Assembly: GCF_026625605.1 (NCBI RefSeq)
Contig: NZ_CP113054.1
Span: forward strand, 682,001-746,000
From: Luteolibacter sp. SL250
Lineage (GTDB): Bacteria > Verrucomicrobiota > Verrucomicrobiia > Verrucomicrobiales > Akkermansiaceae
DNA: 64,000 bases
Direction: 5' to 3'
Positions 7,415 to 22,176 of this stretch are shown one piece after another. Within the stretch, counting starts at the first letter, position 1, and each line of letters opens with the position of its first letter. A program made the translations under genes and the position numbers. The notes beneath the pieces are model-generated. The model saw only the letters and a program-made list of their open reading frames with translations, was not told where the DNA came from and ran no database searches.

Positions 7415-8492
7415 ATGGGACAATTTTTTATCTGCCACTCCAGTACGGACTGGTATCGAGGCCATGGCACTGGCAGTGGCGTTGGAGGCCAGAGGAAAAA
7501 GTTGCTGGATCGCTCCCAGAAACATCGGCGCAGGGACGAATTATCCCCACGAGATCGTGGAAGGGATCAAACGCTGCCCGGAGTTTGTCATTGTCCTGTC
7601 AAACGCGGCGGTGCGCTCGGATCACATCCTGCGGGAGTTGGAGATGGCGGTGAACCAGCGGAAAAAAATCATCCCGATCCGGCTGTCAGGAGTGGAACTC
7701 GGCAACTCGGTCAGCTATTTGCTGGCATCGGTCCAGTGGATTGAGGTCCGCGAGGACGAGTGGAAGAACGCGCCGGGCCGGGTGGCGGACCAGATCCTGG
7801 GCGGGGCGGGTTCGCGAATCGCCTATGAACCTGCCAAAGCCAGGACAGGCGAAGTTTGGATCGGTGCCGCCGCCGCCGGACTGGTGGCATTGGCCGCTGC
7901 GGCGGGGGCGTGGAAAGCTGGCTGGTTTGTTCCCCGGCAGTCGGAAACTCCGGCGGCCGCGGAATCCTCCGGGAGACAGGAAACGCCGGAAATTTCTCCA
8001 TCCGGACTTGCCGATCGGCAGGATCCGGAGGGCAAGCCCCCGGGCGAAATCGAGGTTGGCCAGCGCCAGCAAGATCCTCCCGGTGGGCGGAACTCCGCGG
8101 TGGCTGTGATTCCCCCCAAGCCGCTACCCGAACCCATGGCAAACTCCGAACCAGTGGCTTTCCCGGAAGGTGTGTGGCGTTGCACGGGAAAGGCAGCCTT
8201 CGAGATCGAGTGGGGGATGACATTCACGAGGCATGGGGACGAGCTGCGGGTTTCCGGAGCGAAAGCACTGGTGGGCGGAAAGCCCGCTACCAGGGGGGAA
8301 CGGCAGACCACGCTGGAACTGCGGGGCCGTCTGGACGGAACCAGTTGGGAGGGCCGATACGTGGAAACGTCGAAGAAAGTCAGCGAGGGTGATTTTCAGA
8401 TCCGGTTTTCGGAGGATTTGCGCTCATTCGATGGGAAGATCTTCACCCCTGACAGGAGGGCGTCCTCGAAGTTCGAAGGTATCAAGCGGTGA
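7415..8492 (+). pseudogene. TIR-domain membrane protein with a +1 frameshift
   Basis: From the ATG at 7415 the frame encodes MGQFFICHSSTD, the first strand and loop of a TIR domain. The remainder (GIEAMALAVALEARGKSCWIAPRNI, then SDHILRELEMA and KKIIPIRL) is in another frame. Removing one T at 7451 joins them into a normal TIR spacing. The second frame runs to 8492 and adds one transmembrane helix (GAAAAGLVALAAAAGAW), a Pro/Glu-rich linker and a ~110-residue C-terminal beta-rich domain (EGVWRCTGKAAFEIEWG...). TIR domains bind or cleave NAD. It may be a decayed gene, a sequencing error, or a shorter protein starting at ATG 7464. Confidence 0.75.
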
Positions 8493-14530: not shown

Positions 14531-16240
14531 TCATTTCTTCTTCCGGAGGAACGGAGGAAGGTCGAGGTCCTCCCCGTTCACCACGTTCGGGCTCACACCC
14601 TCGAACCGGCCGCGGGGGGCGGTGTCGAAGGAGAGTTCCGGCTGGGCCGTCGGGGTTTTCACGCCGAGCTTCAGCTTGGGTGGCTCCGTTGCGGGTTTTG
14701 CCTGGGCGGCGGGCGCATCCTCGAGATCCGGCGGAAATTCATCGTCCGGGCGCGGTGCGGGTGGCTTGGGGGTCCAGAGGTTCTTTCCGGCGTCCGCGTC
14801 CGGGGACAGCCGCATGACATTCTCCGATTTCGGGGCGGAGGCGGCGGGCAGTTGGACCGCAGGTTTCTCCTCGTCTTCCGGTGCGGATGCCGGAACCGCG
14901 GCTTCCACCGGCGCGTCGGCAAAGGCTTCCGCGAATGGCGGCTCGTCATCCCACATTTCAACCACCGCCTCGGGCTCCGGTTCAGGCTGTGGTTCAGGTT
15001 CGGGCTCTGGCTGGGCCTTGGTTTCGGCCACCGGCTTGGTGGTGAACATCGGCTCCAGGTCGGATTCTGGTTCTGGTTCCGGCTTCGCTTCCTCAACCGG
15101 TGGAGCGGTGTCCGCGAACGCCGTTTCCGGTTTGGGCCCGGGCTTGGGGTCCGGCTCGGGCTTGGCGGCGGGCGCAGGGGTGGAGAATGAGGCGAAGCTG
15201 TCGGACGGATCGAGCACCGGGTTCTCCGGGAGGGAGGAGGACAGCGAATCCCGCGGTGCGGCGCGGAGGTGGTCTTCCGGCAGGGCGCTGATGAGCGTCA
15301 CGGAAAGCGCGTCCCGCATCGCCGGGTCGATCGCCGCGCCGAACAGCACGTGCGCCTTTTCCGGGACGAACTTCTGGAGCCGCTGCATCAGCAGCTCGAT
15401 TTCATAGAGCGTCAGGTCCTCGCCGCCGGAAAGATGGACCAGCACGGTCTGGGCGTCCTTGAGGAGTGCGCCTTGGTCGAGCAGCGGGCTGGCCAGCGCA
15501 TTGCGCAGCGCCTTGGCGGCCCGGTCCTTCCCTTCCGCCAAGCCGGAGCCGAACAGGCAGCGGGAGCGGTTGGTGCGCAGGGCGCTCATCAGGTCGTCCA
15601 GGCCCACATTGATCAGGCCGGGCCGGATCACCAGGCGGATGACCGCCTTGATGGATTCGCAGATCATCAGGTCCGCGGCGGCGAAGGCCTCATGGATGCC
15701 CTGTTTCGCCAGCACCAGCTCACCCATCCGGTTGTTGTCGAAGGTGACCAGCGCGTTGGAAAGGACCGCCAGCTCGTTGAGTGAGGTTTCCGCCTGCTCG
15801 CGCCGGCGCTTGCCCTCGAAGAAGAAAGGCATCGTCGCGAAGACCACCACGAACGCACCTTCCTCACGGGCGATGCGGGTGACAATGGGGGCCGCGCCGG
15901 AGCCGGTGCCTCCACCAAGGCCCACGCAGAGGAAAACGATGCGACGGCCCCGCAGCGAGTCGCGGATTTCGCTCTCCGCCTCGAGCATCGCCTGCTGGCC
16001 GAGTTCCGGATCCCCCCCCGTGCCCAGTCCCTTCGTCAGATTGCGGCCGAGCTGGATCTTCTCACTGGCGACCGCGGCGGACAGCGTGCGGATGTCCGTG
16101 TTGAGCGCCAGCAATTCGGCGCCCTCCATGCCGTCCAGGGCCACACGTTCGAGGATGTTCGTCCCCCCACCACCGAGGCCGATGATTTTCACGCTCGAGG
16201 TGGGGATGGTTTGCTGGGGATCGCGGGTGTAGGAAATCAT
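14531..16240 (-). CDS. ftsZ: Cell division protein FtsZ with long Glu/Pro-rich linker
   Basis: The ATG at 16240 gives 569 residues, far longer than the usual 350-400. The GTPase domain is clear: VKIIGLGGGGTN, LNTDIRTL and the tubulin signature GGGTGSG at 109-115. The synergy (T7) loop reads GLINVGLDDL (208-217) instead of the common N-x-D-x-x-D, with Gly in place of the first catalytic Asp. After about residue 330 comes a ~220-residue disordered linker with Glu-Pro and Lys-Pro repeats. The end, DLPPFLRKKK, is the conserved C-terminal peptide that binds FtsA and other partners. It is the last gene of the division cluster. Confidence 0.95.
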   Translation of the reverse strand: MISYTRDPQQTIPTSSVKIIGLGGGGTNILERVALDGMEGAELLALNTDIRTLSAAVASEKIQLGRNLTKGLGTGGDPELGQQAMLEAESEIRDSLRGRRIVFLCVGLGGGTGSGAAPIVTRIAREEGAFVVVFATMPFFFEGKRRREQAETSLNELAVLSNALVTFDNNRMGELVLAKQGIHEAFAAADLMICESIKAVIRLVIRPGLINVGLDDLMSALRTNRSRCLFGSGLAEGKDRAAKALRNALASPLLDQGALLKDAQTVLVHLSGGEDLTLYEIELLMQRLQKFVPEKAHVLFGAAIDPAMRDALSVTLISALPEDHLRAAPRDSLSSSLPENPVLDPSDSFASFSTPAPAAKPEPDPKPGPKPETAFADTAPPVEEAKPEPEPESDLEPMFTTKPVAETKAQPEPEPEPQPEPEPEAVVEMWDDEPPFAEAFADAPVEAAVPASAPEDEEKPAVQLPAASAPKSENVMRLSPDADAGKNLWTPKPPAPRPDDEFPPDLEDAPAAQAKPATEPPKLKLGVKTPTAQPELSFDTAPRGRFEGVSPNVVNGEDLDLPPFLRKKK

Positions 16241-16253
16241 TTTGGAAAACTTT

Positions 16254-16292
16254 GGAACATTGAACATCGAACGTCCAACATCGAACGTTGAA
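16254..16292. repeat. Left inverted repeat of the four-helix-bundle element
   Basis: This 39-base arm pairs with 16674-16712 in opposite orientation (33 of 39 positions match). It is built from degenerate GAACAT/GAACGT units. It lies between the end of the four-helix-bundle gene and the start of ftsZ. Confidence 0.85.
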
Positions 16293-16302
16293 GTGAAGAG
16301 AG

Positions 16303-16674
16303 CTATTTGCGGCGTTTTTCAGCGGTGTTGATGCTGGTGACGAAAATGCGGATCAATTGGTCGGTTTCGTCAAGCAGCGGGGCGAGTTTCTGGTCAGGCA
16401 GAATCCCGGAACGGATGATCAGTTTGAGCCAGCGTTGGGATTCGCGGAATTCCTTGAGGGCAAGACGCAGTTTGTGAATGAAATCAGCGGGGGATTCAGC
16501 GCTCTGGGCCTCGCCATGATGCGAAAGCGGAGCGGTCCCAGAACGAAGGAGTTGATTGCCGATGTGCCGTGCGGCGTAGTCCGGCCCCAGCGAGCGGGTG
16601 AGCGTGATGATCCGGGCACCGTAGTCCAACAGGCGATCCTCCAGATCGTAGGATGCTCTCTGTTCATCTTCCAT
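16303..16674 (-). CDS. Four-helix-bundle protein (23S rRNA intervening-sequence protein family)
   Basis: The 123-residue all-helical protein contains YDLEDRLLDYGARIITLTRSL, ARHIGNQLLRSGTAPLSHHGEAQSAES, DFIHKLRLALKEFRESQRWLKLI and a final helix LLDETDQLIRIFVTSINTA. This order (N-Q-L-x-R-S-G, then N/H-x-x-E-A, then a KE-x-x-E-S helix) fits the IVP/four-helix-bundle family encoded inside intervening sequences of bacterial 23S rRNA. It is wedged between ftsA and ftsZ, and its start codon overlaps one of two flanking inverted repeats, so it looks like cargo of an inserted element. Confidence 0.85.
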   Translation of the reverse strand: MEDEQRASYDLEDRLLDYGARIITLTRSLGPDYAARHIGNQLLRSGTAPLSHHGEAQSAESPADFIHKLRLALKEFRESQRWLKLIIRSGILPDQKLAPLLDETDQLIRIFVTSINTAEKRRK

Positions 16675-16712
16675 TCGATGTTCATTGTTGGACGTTCAAT
16701 GTTCGATGTTCC
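16674..16712. repeat. Right inverted repeat of the four-helix-bundle element
   Basis: Partner of 16254-16292. The shared core GAACGTCCAACA is exact. The arm begins at the start codon of the four-helix-bundle gene and ends two bases before the ftsA stop codon at 16715-16717, so the 459-base element exactly fills the ftsA-ftsZ gap. Confidence 0.85.
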
Positions 16713-16714
16713 GG

Positions 16715-17926
16715 CTATCGTCCCATCCAGAAGAGGCGGGCGATCCGCCCGAGGCAGCCGGGCGGTTTGGCGCGTTCGGTTTCCAGGATCTGGGCGTAGC
16801 GGATGAGACCGATGGCGGTGGCGAAGCGGGGGTCTTTGAAGCTGTTCTGCGAGCCGCTGAAGTCGGAGGATTCCGGGCGGTAGATGTCGCGCCCGAAGAC
16901 TTCGAACGCCAGCTCGCTGAACCCGCGCATCTGGCTGGTGCCGCCGGTGAGGAAGATGCCCGCGCCGATGTTCTCCACGGCACCTTCCGGAAGCCGCTGC
17001 TTCACCAGCTTGAGCGTTTCCTCCAGCCGCTGGCGGATCACTTCGTTCAGGATGCTGCGCTTCACCTCGACATCCGCATAGCCGCGCTCGTCGGTGAGTT
17101 TCGCGGTGCCGACCGCCTTCGCAGGATCCGCGGAGGCGTCGCCTTCGGTGACTTTGAGGGCTTCCGCCTTGGAAAAGGGAAGACCGGTGACGAGGTGGAT
17201 GTCATTGGTCACATGGTCGCCGCCCACGGGGATGCAGCCGGACGCGGCGATCGAGCCGCCCAGGTAGAGGGCGTAGTCGGTGGTGCCGCCACCGATGTCG
17301 ATCACCAGCGCGCCGCGCTCGCGTTGCTCGGGGTCGAGCGCCATCTGTGCGGTGGCGATGGGGGAGAAAACGACATCATCCACCTCCAGCGGCATCTCCC
17401 GGACCAGCTTGATGCTGTTCTGGATGCGGTTGCCGATGCCATGGACGATGTGGAAGTCCGCCTCCACGGTCTTGCCGAAGAGGCCGACAGGGGAGGTGTT
17501 GTGCTCCAGCCCGTCCAGCCAGTAGTTGCGGATGATGTTGTGGATGTAGACATGGTCCGCCGGGATGTGGACATCCTTCGCGATGTCCCGTGCTTCCTGC
17601 ACGTGTTCCGGTGCCACGGTGGGATCCCCCTCCGGCAGACGGAAGGTGCCGCGGTTGTTCACTCCCTGGATGTGGGAGCCGGTGACCGCCAGATACACGC
17701 TGCCGATCTCCACGTCGCTCGCGTCCTCCGCCTTCACCAGCGCGTCCTTCAGACAGGCCCGGGCCTGCGGGAAATCGTTGATCTCCCCCTTGCGGACGCC
17801 GGCGGTGTTGGTGACGCCGATGCCCAGGATCTTGATCGCGGTGTCCGGCTTCACTTCGCCGACCACCATGCAGGTCTTGCTGGTTCCGATTTCGAGTCCG
17901 ACGTGAATTTTCGAGCGGCGTGCCAT
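16715..17926 (-). CDS. ftsA: Cell division protein FtsA
   Basis: The 403-residue actin-like protein anchors FtsZ filaments to the membrane. It begins KIHVGLEIGTSKTCMVVGE (phosphate-1 motif) and has the SHIQGVNNRGTFRLPEGD region (1C domain), ALVIDIGGGTTDYALY (phosphate-2) and GIFLTGGTSQMRGF (adenosine motif). The last residues, GCLGRIARLFWMGR, form the amphipathic membrane-targeting helix. Length is normal. It follows ftsQ by 15 bases; downstream the inserted element separates it from ftsZ. Confidence 0.95.
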   Translation of the reverse strand: MARRSKIHVGLEIGTSKTCMVVGEVKPDTAIKILGIGVTNTAGVRKGEINDFPQARACLKDALVKAEDASDVEIGSVYLAVTGSHIQGVNNRGTFRLPEGDPTVAPEHVQEARDIAKDVHIPADHVYIHNIIRNYWLDGLEHNTSPVGLFGKTVEADFHIVHGIGNRIQNSIKLVREMPLEVDDVVFSPIATAQMALDPEQRERGALVIDIGGGTTDYALYLGGSIAASGCIPVGGDHVTNDIHLVTGLPFSKAEALKVTEGDASADPAKAVGTAKLTDERGYADVEVKRSILNEVIRQRLEETLKLVKQRLPEGAVENIGAGIFLTGGTSQMRGFSELAFEVFGRDIYRPESSDFSGSQNSFKDPRFATAIGLIRYAQILETERAKPPGCLGRIARLFWMGR

Positions 17927-19875: not shown

Positions 19876-22176
19876 TCAGAAATCGGGTTCGTCTTCGCCG
19901 AGGATCTTGACCTCCGTTTCGAGGTCGACGTAGCGCTCGGTTTTGGCTTTGGCCTGGATGGATTCGATGAGGGTGAGGATCTCGGTGGCGGAGGCACCAC
20001 CGGTGTTGACGATGAAGTTGCCGTGGGATTCGGAAACGGCGGCCTTGCCGACGGACGTGCCCTTCAGGCCCATGGAGTCCACCAGGCGGCCCGCCGCGAT
20101 GACTTCCGGATTCTTGAAGACACATCCGGCGGATGCGGCGATGGGCTGTGAACTACGGCGCTTTTCGCGGGATTCTTCCCAGCGGGCCTTGATGTTTTCA
20201 GGTTTGTCAGGCTTGCCCTTGAAGACGGCCTGGAGCGCGAAGTTGCGGCGGAGTTCCGGCACGTTCCGGTAGCTGGCGACGATCTCGTCCCGCTCCCGGG
20301 TGCGGATCACGCCGTCCTCATCCAGGAAGGTGACGCGCACCACCTGATCGAAGGTTTCCGATCCCATAGCACCGGCGTTCATCCGGAGAGCGCCGCCGAC
20401 ATTGCCGGGGATGCCCTCCATCCATTCGAATCCGCCGATGCCGTGTCCTCCTGCCGCGCTGGCGAGTTTCTTCAGACGGACCCCGGCACCCGCCGTGACA
20501 TGGCCCTTGCCGTCCACGGTCACCTCGGAGAACACACCGCCGCTGGGGTGGATGACAGCACCGCGGATGCCGCCGTCGCGCACCAGCAGGTTCGACCCCC
20601 GGCCGACCACCCGTACCGGGATGCCGCGCTCCCGGCAATAGCTGACGAGGAAGGCGAAGGCGTAGAAACTGTGCGGCTCCATCCAATACTGCGCCGGTCC
20701 GCCGACGAGCATGGTGGTGTGCTTCTTCATCGGCTCGTAGAGACGGCCCTCGATTTCGCCCTCCGGCATCAGGGCGCGCATTTCCTCGAGCACCTTGAGA
20801 TCCGCGGAGATCTTCGTCCCGATCTCATGGACGTTCCCCGCACCGAGGGTGATGAGGAGATCCCCCGGCTCCAGCGCGTTGCCGACGGCGTGGTGGGCGG
20901 TCGCCAGATCCGGCACATAGGTCACCCGGATGTCGCCATGTTTTTCCACGGCATCGACCAAGGTCTGCCCGGAAATGCCCTCGATCGGCTTTTCGGAAGC
21001 GGCATAGACATCCGTGATGAAAATCCGGTCCGCCGCCTGCAGGACCTTGCCGAAATCATCGGCGAGCGCTTGGGTGCGGGTGTAGCGGTGGGGCTGGAAC
21101 AGGACGACAACGCGGCCGGGCTTCAGCGAGCGGGCGGTCTGCAGCGTCGCCGCCAGCTCGGACGGATGGTGGCCGTAGTCATCCACGATGCGGTAGTCCT
21201 TCGAGAGGTACTTCGTCTCGAAGCGCCGCTTCGCTCCGGCGAAAGTGGCGAGGGCACGCGCCACCTTGGCGAATTCCGCGCCGCAGCAGTCCGCCAGCGC
21301 GATCGCGCCGAGGGCGTTGAGGATATTGTGGTTTCCGGGGATGCCGAGTTCCACATCGCCCAGCGGCTCGCCGTTCTTCATCACGCAGAAGGCGGATGAG
21401 CCTTTCAGGTCGCGGATGTCGGACGCGGTGTAGTCCGCGTCGTCCCAGCCGTAGGAGATCGCATTCGGCCGTCCCGAGCAGATTTCATGGGCGACCGGAT
21501 CTTCCGCGCAGAAGACGATCTTGCCGGTGGTCTGGTCCGCCAGCTTCGTGAAGACCTCCTTGATGTGGTCGAGATCGCGGTAGAAATCGAGATGCTCCGC
21601 CTCGATGTTGAGGATGATCGAGTGTTCCGGGTGGTAGAGGGCCAGCGTGCCGTCGCTCTCATCCCCTTCCGCCACCATGTGGGTGCCGTCTTCCGACCAT
21701 TTCGCGTTCGCGCCCAGGATCGGGATCTCCGCGCCGACGTAGTGGCTGGGTTTCTGTCCGGCCTCACGCAACACGTGCGCGGTCATGGAGGAAGTCGTGG
21801 TTTTCCCGTGCGTTCCGGAAATGACGATGCCCTTCTTCGTGTGGAGGATGGCGGCCAGGCACTCGGCGCGGCGCAGCAGGGGGATGCCCGCATCCACAGC
21901 GGCGGCGTAGGCGGGATTTTCCGGACGGATGGCGGAGGAATACACCACCAGGTCAGCGTCCTTCACGGCTTCCCCGGTCTGCGGCGACCAGAACTCCAGG
22001 CCGATCTTCTGCATCCGCTCCGTTTCCCGGGTGGTCACACGGTCGCAGCCGCTCACCCGGTGGCCCATGCCAAGGAGCAGCAGCGCGAGGCCGCTCATGC
22101 CCGAACCGGCGACGCCGATGAGGTGGATGTGCAGCGGGTTGCTGCGGTCGGTGAGGCGCTGGCTGAGATCGGTCAT
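19876..22176 (-). CDS. murC/murB: Fused UDP-MurNAc--L-alanine ligase / UDP-GlcNAc-enolpyruvate reductase (MurC-MurB)
   Basis: A 766-residue bifunctional protein. Residues about 1-470 are MurC: HLIGVAGSGMSGLA, ATP loop GTHGKTTT (121-128), EGDESDGTL, GNHNILNALGA and DDYGHHPSEL. From about 480 it is MurB: VRVVGRGSNLLVRDGGIRG (FAD binding), GFEWMEGIPGNVGGALRMNAGA, ASAGCVFKNP (681-690) and the terminal E-containing LETEVKILG. In MurB the SAGS Ser is the proton donor; here it is Cys685, a variant found in some MurBs. MurC-MurB fusions are known in Verrucomicrobia and related groups. It overlaps murG by four bases. Confidence 0.96.
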   Translation of the reverse strand: MTDLSQRLTDRSNPLHIHLIGVAGSGMSGLALLLLGMGHRVSGCDRVTTRETERMQKIGLEFWSPQTGEAVKDADLVVYSSAIRPENPAYAAAVDAGIPLLRRAECLAAILHTKKGIVISGTHGKTTTSSMTAHVLREAGQKPSHYVGAEIPILGANAKWSEDGTHMVAEGDESDGTLALYHPEHSIILNIEAEHLDFYRDLDHIKEVFTKLADQTTGKIVFCAEDPVAHEICSGRPNAISYGWDDADYTASDIRDLKGSSAFCVMKNGEPLGDVELGIPGNHNILNALGAIALADCCGAEFAKVARALATFAGAKRRFETKYLSKDYRIVDDYGHHPSELAATLQTARSLKPGRVVVLFQPHRYTRTQALADDFGKVLQAADRIFITDVYAASEKPIEGISGQTLVDAVEKHGDIRVTYVPDLATAHHAVGNALEPGDLLITLGAGNVHEIGTKISADLKVLEEMRALMPEGEIEGRLYEPMKKHTTMLVGGPAQYWMEPHSFYAFAFLVSYCRERGIPVRVVGRGSNLLVRDGGIRGAVIHPSGGVFSEVTVDGKGHVTAGAGVRLKKLASAAGGHGIGGFEWMEGIPGNVGGALRMNAGAMGSETFDQVVRVTFLDEDGVIRTRERDEIVASYRNVPELRRNFALQAVFKGKPDKPENIKARWEESREKRRSSQPIAASAGCVFKNPEVIAAGRLVDSMGLKGTSVGKAAVSESHGNFIVNTGGASATEILTLIESIQAKAKTERYVDLETEVKILGEDEPDF

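Follow-up and report, generated by a model that had tools for sequence, protein, structure and literature searches.

What is a gene of the 23S rRNA intervening-sequence protein (IVP) family, framed by inverted repeats, doing between ftsA and ftsZ? Work on intervening sequences (IVSs) has so far treated them as peculiarities of rRNA, apart from the heptanucleotide repeats found in intergenic regions. A locus that may bring the two together lies in a 64,000-nt stretch of the genome of Luteolibacter sp. SL250 (contig NZ_CP113054.1, positions 682,001 to 746,000), referred to here as the window.

An IVP Gene between Inverted 7-nt Arrays

Profile scans assigned the ORF between ftsA and ftsZ to PF05635 (44.8 bits, cut-off 33.8) and TIGR02436 (72.8 bits, cut-off 24), in agreement with the original prediction of an IVP-family gene. 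The same scans gave no match to enzyme families, and the closest relative of the protein in the PDB is 2RLD (E = 6.8e-15). The IVS-like layout, with the gene inside inverted arms, was likewise borne out (Table 1). The predicted 39-base inverted repeats are real, but they are only the outer part of a pair that extends to 46 nt per arm with 83% complementarity. Similarly, the claim that the element fills the whole gap held at its ftsA end, where two bases remain before the stop codon, but not at the other end: the listed ftsZ ORF starts inside the arm (16267), whereas relatives conserve a start at 16240 (MISY/MIPY), so that 13 bases lie between the arm and ftsZ. The gap is nearly filled by the arms and the IVP gene.

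Table 1. Features of the ftsA–ftsZ junction (positions in the window)
Feature	Positions	Strand	Description
ftsZ	14531..16240	−	Start conserved in relatives
3′ arm, inverted copy	16254..16299	+	GAACATT GAACATC GAACGTC CAACATC GAACGTT GAAGTGAAGA, reading inward
IVP / four-helix-bundle gene	16303..16674	−	123 aa, intact
5′ arm (IVP sense)	16667..16712	−	Units GAACATC GAACATT GAACGTC CAACAAT GAACATC, then GAATGGAAGA; IVP start codon within its inner edge
ftsA	16715..17926	−	Two bases between its stop and the element

Beyond what had been predicted, the arms consist of tandem 7-nt units near GAACRTY/CAACRTY, which occur throughout the host genome. Allowing up to three mismatches, this heptad pattern has six overlapping matches in the window, all of them within the arms; the expectation from 100 shuffles is 0.03. 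Folding of the sense RNA (minus strand, 561 nt) gives a z-score of −4.0 (0 of 100 shuffles as good), and that of the antisense (plus) strand a z-score of −2.25 (4 of 100 shuffles as good).

The dN/dS of the window's IVP gene is 0.14 and 0.19 against two relatives and saturated against a third, and values of 0.03 to 0.19 were obtained for those 9 IVP pairs, out of 11, whose synonymous sites are unsaturated. Judged by these ratios, the IVP gene is under purifying selection.

Elsewhere in the window, FtsZ has, by eye, a long proline- and glutamate-rich C-terminal extension, and its score is under the NCBIfam ftsZ cut-off (277.8 versus 295.2 bits). A 766-aa ORF (19876 to 22176, minus strand) reads by eye as a MurC–MurB fusion, and the start of the ORF at 7464 to 8492 (plus strand) resembles, again by eye, a TIR-type domain.

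Occurrence of the Element in Relatives

The ftsA–ftsZ junction could be read in 36 of the 37 genus genomes returned by our search, host included; in G020 it is broken by a contig end. This comparison, proposed together with the original prediction, showed that the element is not fixed: it is intact in the host (G000), present as a relic in two genomes and absent from 33. One relic (G028) retains IVP residues 6 to 64 (61% identical) and worn arms, whereas the other (G033) retains the 5′ arm and IVP residues 94 to 121 (82% identical), its contig ending shortly beyond. At the junctions of the remaining 33 genomes no IVP remnant was seen. Since 33 of 36 genomes do without the element and two copies have decayed differently, the element appears to be dispensable between ftsA and ftsZ. 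Neither an exact pair of empty and filled sites nor a target duplication was found. By eye, some of the element-free gaps (G023, G032, G014 and G022) contain 7-nt repeats of other sequence.

IVPs close to that of the window are encoded in G012 (73% identity), G009 and G007 (71%), G024 (68%), G023 (61%) and G006 (56%). Both flanks could be obtained for the loci of G009, G007, G023 and G006, and GAACATC-type arrays lie beside the IVP gene in all four, always at other sites and, in G006, pointing the opposite way. In both G009 and G007 the gene sits at the same junction, by eye oppD–oppF. The suggested search for similar repeats around other four-helix-bundle genes was thus successful, and the occurrence of these arrays at other sites around close IVPs points to mobility. 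Together with its presence and absence among relatives, this favors the predicted mobile insertion, one that moves or has moved; from these comparisons the element is most likely both mobile and dispensable at this site. More distant IVPs carry other units, for example GATTGTT, and no arms were seen at the 51%-identical IVP of G058 (L271). A Mantel test on 95 elements (4279 pairs, after removal of 186 same-site pairs) linked arm sequence weakly to IVP relatedness (r = 0.17, p = 0.0005), mainly between different sites where identity exceeds about 60%.

Dispersal of the Arms in the Host Genome

In the 4.92-Mb host genome, the heptad pattern (up to one mismatch) yielded 61 + 62 overlapping matches, compared to 0 + 0 for the reversed pattern. 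The genome holds three IVP genes, so that the arm family is mostly gene-less. An arm profile, applied to 29 fetched stretches that represent part of the genome's arms and include the two other IVP loci, gave 45 matches (two of them short), which fall into 8 inverted pairs and 29 unpaired arms. Among these 8 pairs only that of the window encloses an IVP gene, and the profile found none of these GAACATC-type arms at the two other IVP loci. The outer flanks of the dispersed copies mostly differ from one another by eye, and the family therefore seems to begin at the heptads. Of 59 genomes searched, 32 contain a shorter arm pattern. Its distribution is very uneven, with 82 matches in the host genome, 87 in G006 and 2 in G028, which ranks first among the relatives by FtsA score. 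Many GAACATC arms of the host genome stand single and unpaired, denser in one region (e.g., 3.74 to 3.96 Mb), and several of them lie, by eye, directly behind a stop codon.

Seven-Nucleotide Periodicity at IVP Loci

The periodicity of the arms recurs at IVP loci far from the genus. In a set across phyla, comprising the best 80 of 587 confirmed loci chosen by similarity to one query (about 15 phyla, counted from the record titles of the 80 loci), at least 20 of 28 lag-7 positions matched upstream in 38 of 77 flanks (controls, 0 of 74) and downstream in 29 of 78 (controls, 1 of 76). Lag 7 was the single best period in 40 of 77 and 38 of 78 flanks (controls, 4 of 74 and 5 of 76); for lag 8 the counts were 8 of 77 and 7 of 78. 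For the host's order (93 loci fetched from a longer list, many at common junctions), the threshold was reached upstream in 27 and downstream in 28 of 92 flanks (controls, 0 of 86 and 1 of 90), with lag 7 as the single best period in 38 and 39 of 92 (controls, 2 of 86 and 5 of 90). The order of the cyanobacterium G060, counted with L359 and L379 excluded, gave 18 and 19 of 28 (controls, 2 of 28 and 0 of 26), and lag 7 was best in 15 of 28 on either side (controls, 1 of 28 and 2 of 26). The family of G059 (Lysobacteraceae), counted upstream and without control stretches, reached the threshold in 18 of 30 loci and had lag 7 as the best period in 24 of 30. The units vary between elements, and the period stays at 7.

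Relative to cross pairs, the match between the two arms of one locus as inverted copies lay above the 99th percentile in 38 of 72 cases across phyla and in 39 of 92 in the host's order, and when the same flanks across phyla were compared without inversion, 10 of 72 passed this line. About half of the loci have clear inverted arms; in the rest they are weak or missed by the test. Four early-stop loci (L134, L141, L152 and L192) were excluded from the arm, G·U, orientation and inner-edge tests and kept in the across-phyla periodicity count. The window element (L033) itself has inverted 7-nt periodic arrays at both ends of its IVP gene. These data suggest that IVP genes with inverted 7-nt arms form a wider class of elements, a class that rests on the periodicity controls.

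A conserved purine inner edge (GAAGA) occurs in the host's order, in 21 and 22 of 76 cases versus 1 and 1 in controls. It was dropped as a feature of the class, the counts across phyla being 4 and 2 of 50 versus 2 and 2.

Orientation within Operons

Where both neighbors could be called among the 93 host-order loci, 59 IVP genes run in the direction of both neighbors and none against both; an earlier method had counted 52 versus 1. Across phyla (76 loci), 36 are co-directional, 2 opposed, 6 convergent and 2 divergent. On these counts, the usual place of the class is in sense between two genes of the same direction. The loci do not count as independent, because many sit at a common junction: 17 of the 93 host-order loci share one that reads by eye as metK–ahcY, and nuo genes, gyrB–gyrA and pheS–pheT recur as well, read by eye from translated ends. 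At two shared junctions, arms agree better within an element than between copies (permutation p = 0.0005 for each junction), and the unit has changed between copies at a shared junction, for example from AGACAGA to AGACGCA. This agreement within elements may reflect re-insertion or concerted change, which the comparison does not separate.

Nature of the Element

We propose that the window element is probably a copy of a small mobile element that consists of an IVP gene and inverted 7-nt arrays and has come to lie in sense between ftsA and ftsZ. Sequence comparison establishes the anatomy, the dispersed arms, the related copies elsewhere, the decay in sister genomes, the purifying selection on the IVP gene and the bias toward sense positions in operons. 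As for a mechanism, the element would be transcribed together with ftsA and ftsZ, its arms would pair in the transcript, and RNase III might cut the resulting stem by analogy with rRNA IVSs. Because such a cut would fall between two reading frames, its cost would presumably be low, much as rRNA tolerates a cut helix. The IVP may recognize its own heptad arms and help the element to copy itself or to persist.

The arm mismatches were also inspected. On the IVP strand of 137 elements, A·C mismatches outnumber G·U mismatches (232 versus 137). Selection for a sense RNA stem should produce an excess of G·U; the result is the opposite, and the mismatches give no sign of such selection. The excess is mostly of A over G, lies for the most part within 30 nt of the inner end, and we read it as start-codon composition.

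It is possible, though we think it unlikely, that an unrelated transposase instead moves the whole as a MITE-like DNA element, with the IVP as a passenger and the heptad arms as recognition ends of that transposase. Like MITEs and REP-type palindromic repeats, the arms are dispersed, multi-copy inverted repeats that are mostly gene-less, although most arms here are unpaired, and the fact that a single one of the 8 inverted pairs found in the host genome holds an IVP gene would fit this explanation. So would G274, a genome from the order of G060, in which 10 of 13 fetched IVP copies lie in a larger unit that starts with ACTGACGTTACGCA. On the other hand, these tandem arrays change their unit between IVP elements and stay 7-nt periodic, which is not expected of a fixed transposase end, and both the sense-in-operon bias and the purifying selection on the IVP gene speak against a mere passenger.

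These ten copies of G274 (L383 to L392) share long, near-identical stretches, mostly at 85 to 99%, and a near-inverted end, TGCGTAACATCAGT, is present in three of the eight units whose ends were inspected. By its sequence, the IVP unit of this genome seems to travel inside a larger transposon-like unit.

Improbable, in our judgment, is domestication as a processing site for tuning the FtsA:FtsZ ratio, a role raised by the original prediction. As a conserved function it finds no support, with 33 of 36 genus genomes showing no element and two having differently decayed relics, even though the exact position at the junction would suit it and would place a long hairpin between the two frames. Domestication is conceivable elsewhere, where elements at the junction read by eye as metK–ahcY are kept in many relatives with dN/dS values of 0.04 to 0.06 in three pairs.

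We give very little credence to the transfer of a classical 23S IVS into an mRNA operon. IVSs with an S23p/IVP gene in 23S rRNA (Coxiella, Leptospira) resemble the window element in that terminal inverted repeats enclose a gene of this protein family, and in Coxiella the IVS also has, according to the cited sections of the source, GACAGAT heptamers (two or three, depending on the strain) followed by GACAGAA before the S23p ORF, with an RNase III cut at the first heptamer (PMC4990558). The window element differs from these in lying between two protein genes and in having a dispersed arm family; it is IVS-like, and by its location it is not an rRNA IVS. Moreover, both 23S genes of the host (2834 nt each) are free of inserts, the close IVP relatives adjoin protein genes, and a blastn search of one host 23S gene against a collected set of the IVP loci gave no match, for which reason the link to rRNA rests on published work. 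Least probable of all is a reverse-transcriptase-driven element akin to diversity-generating retroelements: their Avd protein is related to the IVP and, in the part of the literature cited, resembles PF05635 in structure (PMC10053308), but an RVT_1 reverse transcriptase was not found in the host genome or in G006, despite their 82 and 87 arm matches.

Relation to Known Repeats

Returning to a mobile element of IVP gene and 7-nt arrays, we note several described repeats that may be related to it. Xanthomonas genomes contain GGGAATC heptamer arrays, for which the cited sections report 186 and 183 arrays in two genomes with 70 and 75 convergent inverted pairs, mostly intergenic and nearer to the 5′ neighboring gene (PMC4692102). 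They share with the window's arms the tandem 7-nt units, which are also present at IVP loci within that bacterial family, but they were studied as G-quadruplex repeats, and the term “helix bundle” occurs nowhere in the main text of that report (PMC4692102). The TAACTGA repeats of Beggiatoaceae, cyanobacteria and Bacteroidetes (PMC4679880) and the heptanucleotide elements of Geobacter metallireducens (PMC2700814) are, in the sections cited, also tandem 7-nt units, many of them intergenic. The putative regulator-site classes of G. metallireducens are mostly paired there, one of them having five tandem heptanucleotides (PMC2700814); unlike the elements studied here, neither repeat is linked to an IVP in these sections (PMC4679880, PMC2700814). 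Insertion sequences in the 16S and 23S genes of CPR bacteria carry, as far as the cited sections go, the same protein family; they differ in residing in rRNA genes, and the main text of that report contains no instance of “inverted repeat” (PMC11270868). In the sources covered by our search, with preprints and most subscription journals lying outside it, we found no literature that links IVP genes in general with heptad arrays or operon junctions. As a single case, a table in one report lists, for two strains of Flavobacterium columnare, a four helix bundle gene flanked by guanylate kinase and nadD (PMC5524665).

The sequence similarities suggest that the heptamer repeats of Xanthomonas and the heptamers of the Coxiella 23S IVS could be linked to one type of element. 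A still wider picture is conceivable, and we offer it tentatively, as something short of probable: IVP genes between inverted 7-nt arrays, lying in sense in operon junctions, would be widespread transcript-borne mobile elements; rRNA IVSs would be those cases that landed in rRNA; the intergenic heptanucleotide repeats of Xanthomonas, cyanobacteria and others would be arms and gene-less derivatives; and copying in 7-nt steps would rewrite both arms together, keeping them complementary during turnover. If one type of element does occur in many phyla, the transcripts of essential-gene operons would carry possible sites of cutting or folding, at ftsA–ftsZ here and at metK–ahcY, gyrB–gyrA and pheS–pheT (by eye) in relatives. 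The function of the IVP would then become testable, through binding to its own 7-nt arms.

Runs of GGGAWT units occur in 10 of 30 IVP loci of the G059 family, six with runs near both gene ends that point inward, and part of the L343 IVP matches XCC0516 (PDB 2GSC; E = 6.5e-41). Several of the loci L335 to L353 have their 3′ heptad arm within the final codons of the IVP ORF; heptads thus encode the C terminus of the protein, and the downstream periodicity test misses this arm. Some junctions of this family read, by eye, as accB–accC.
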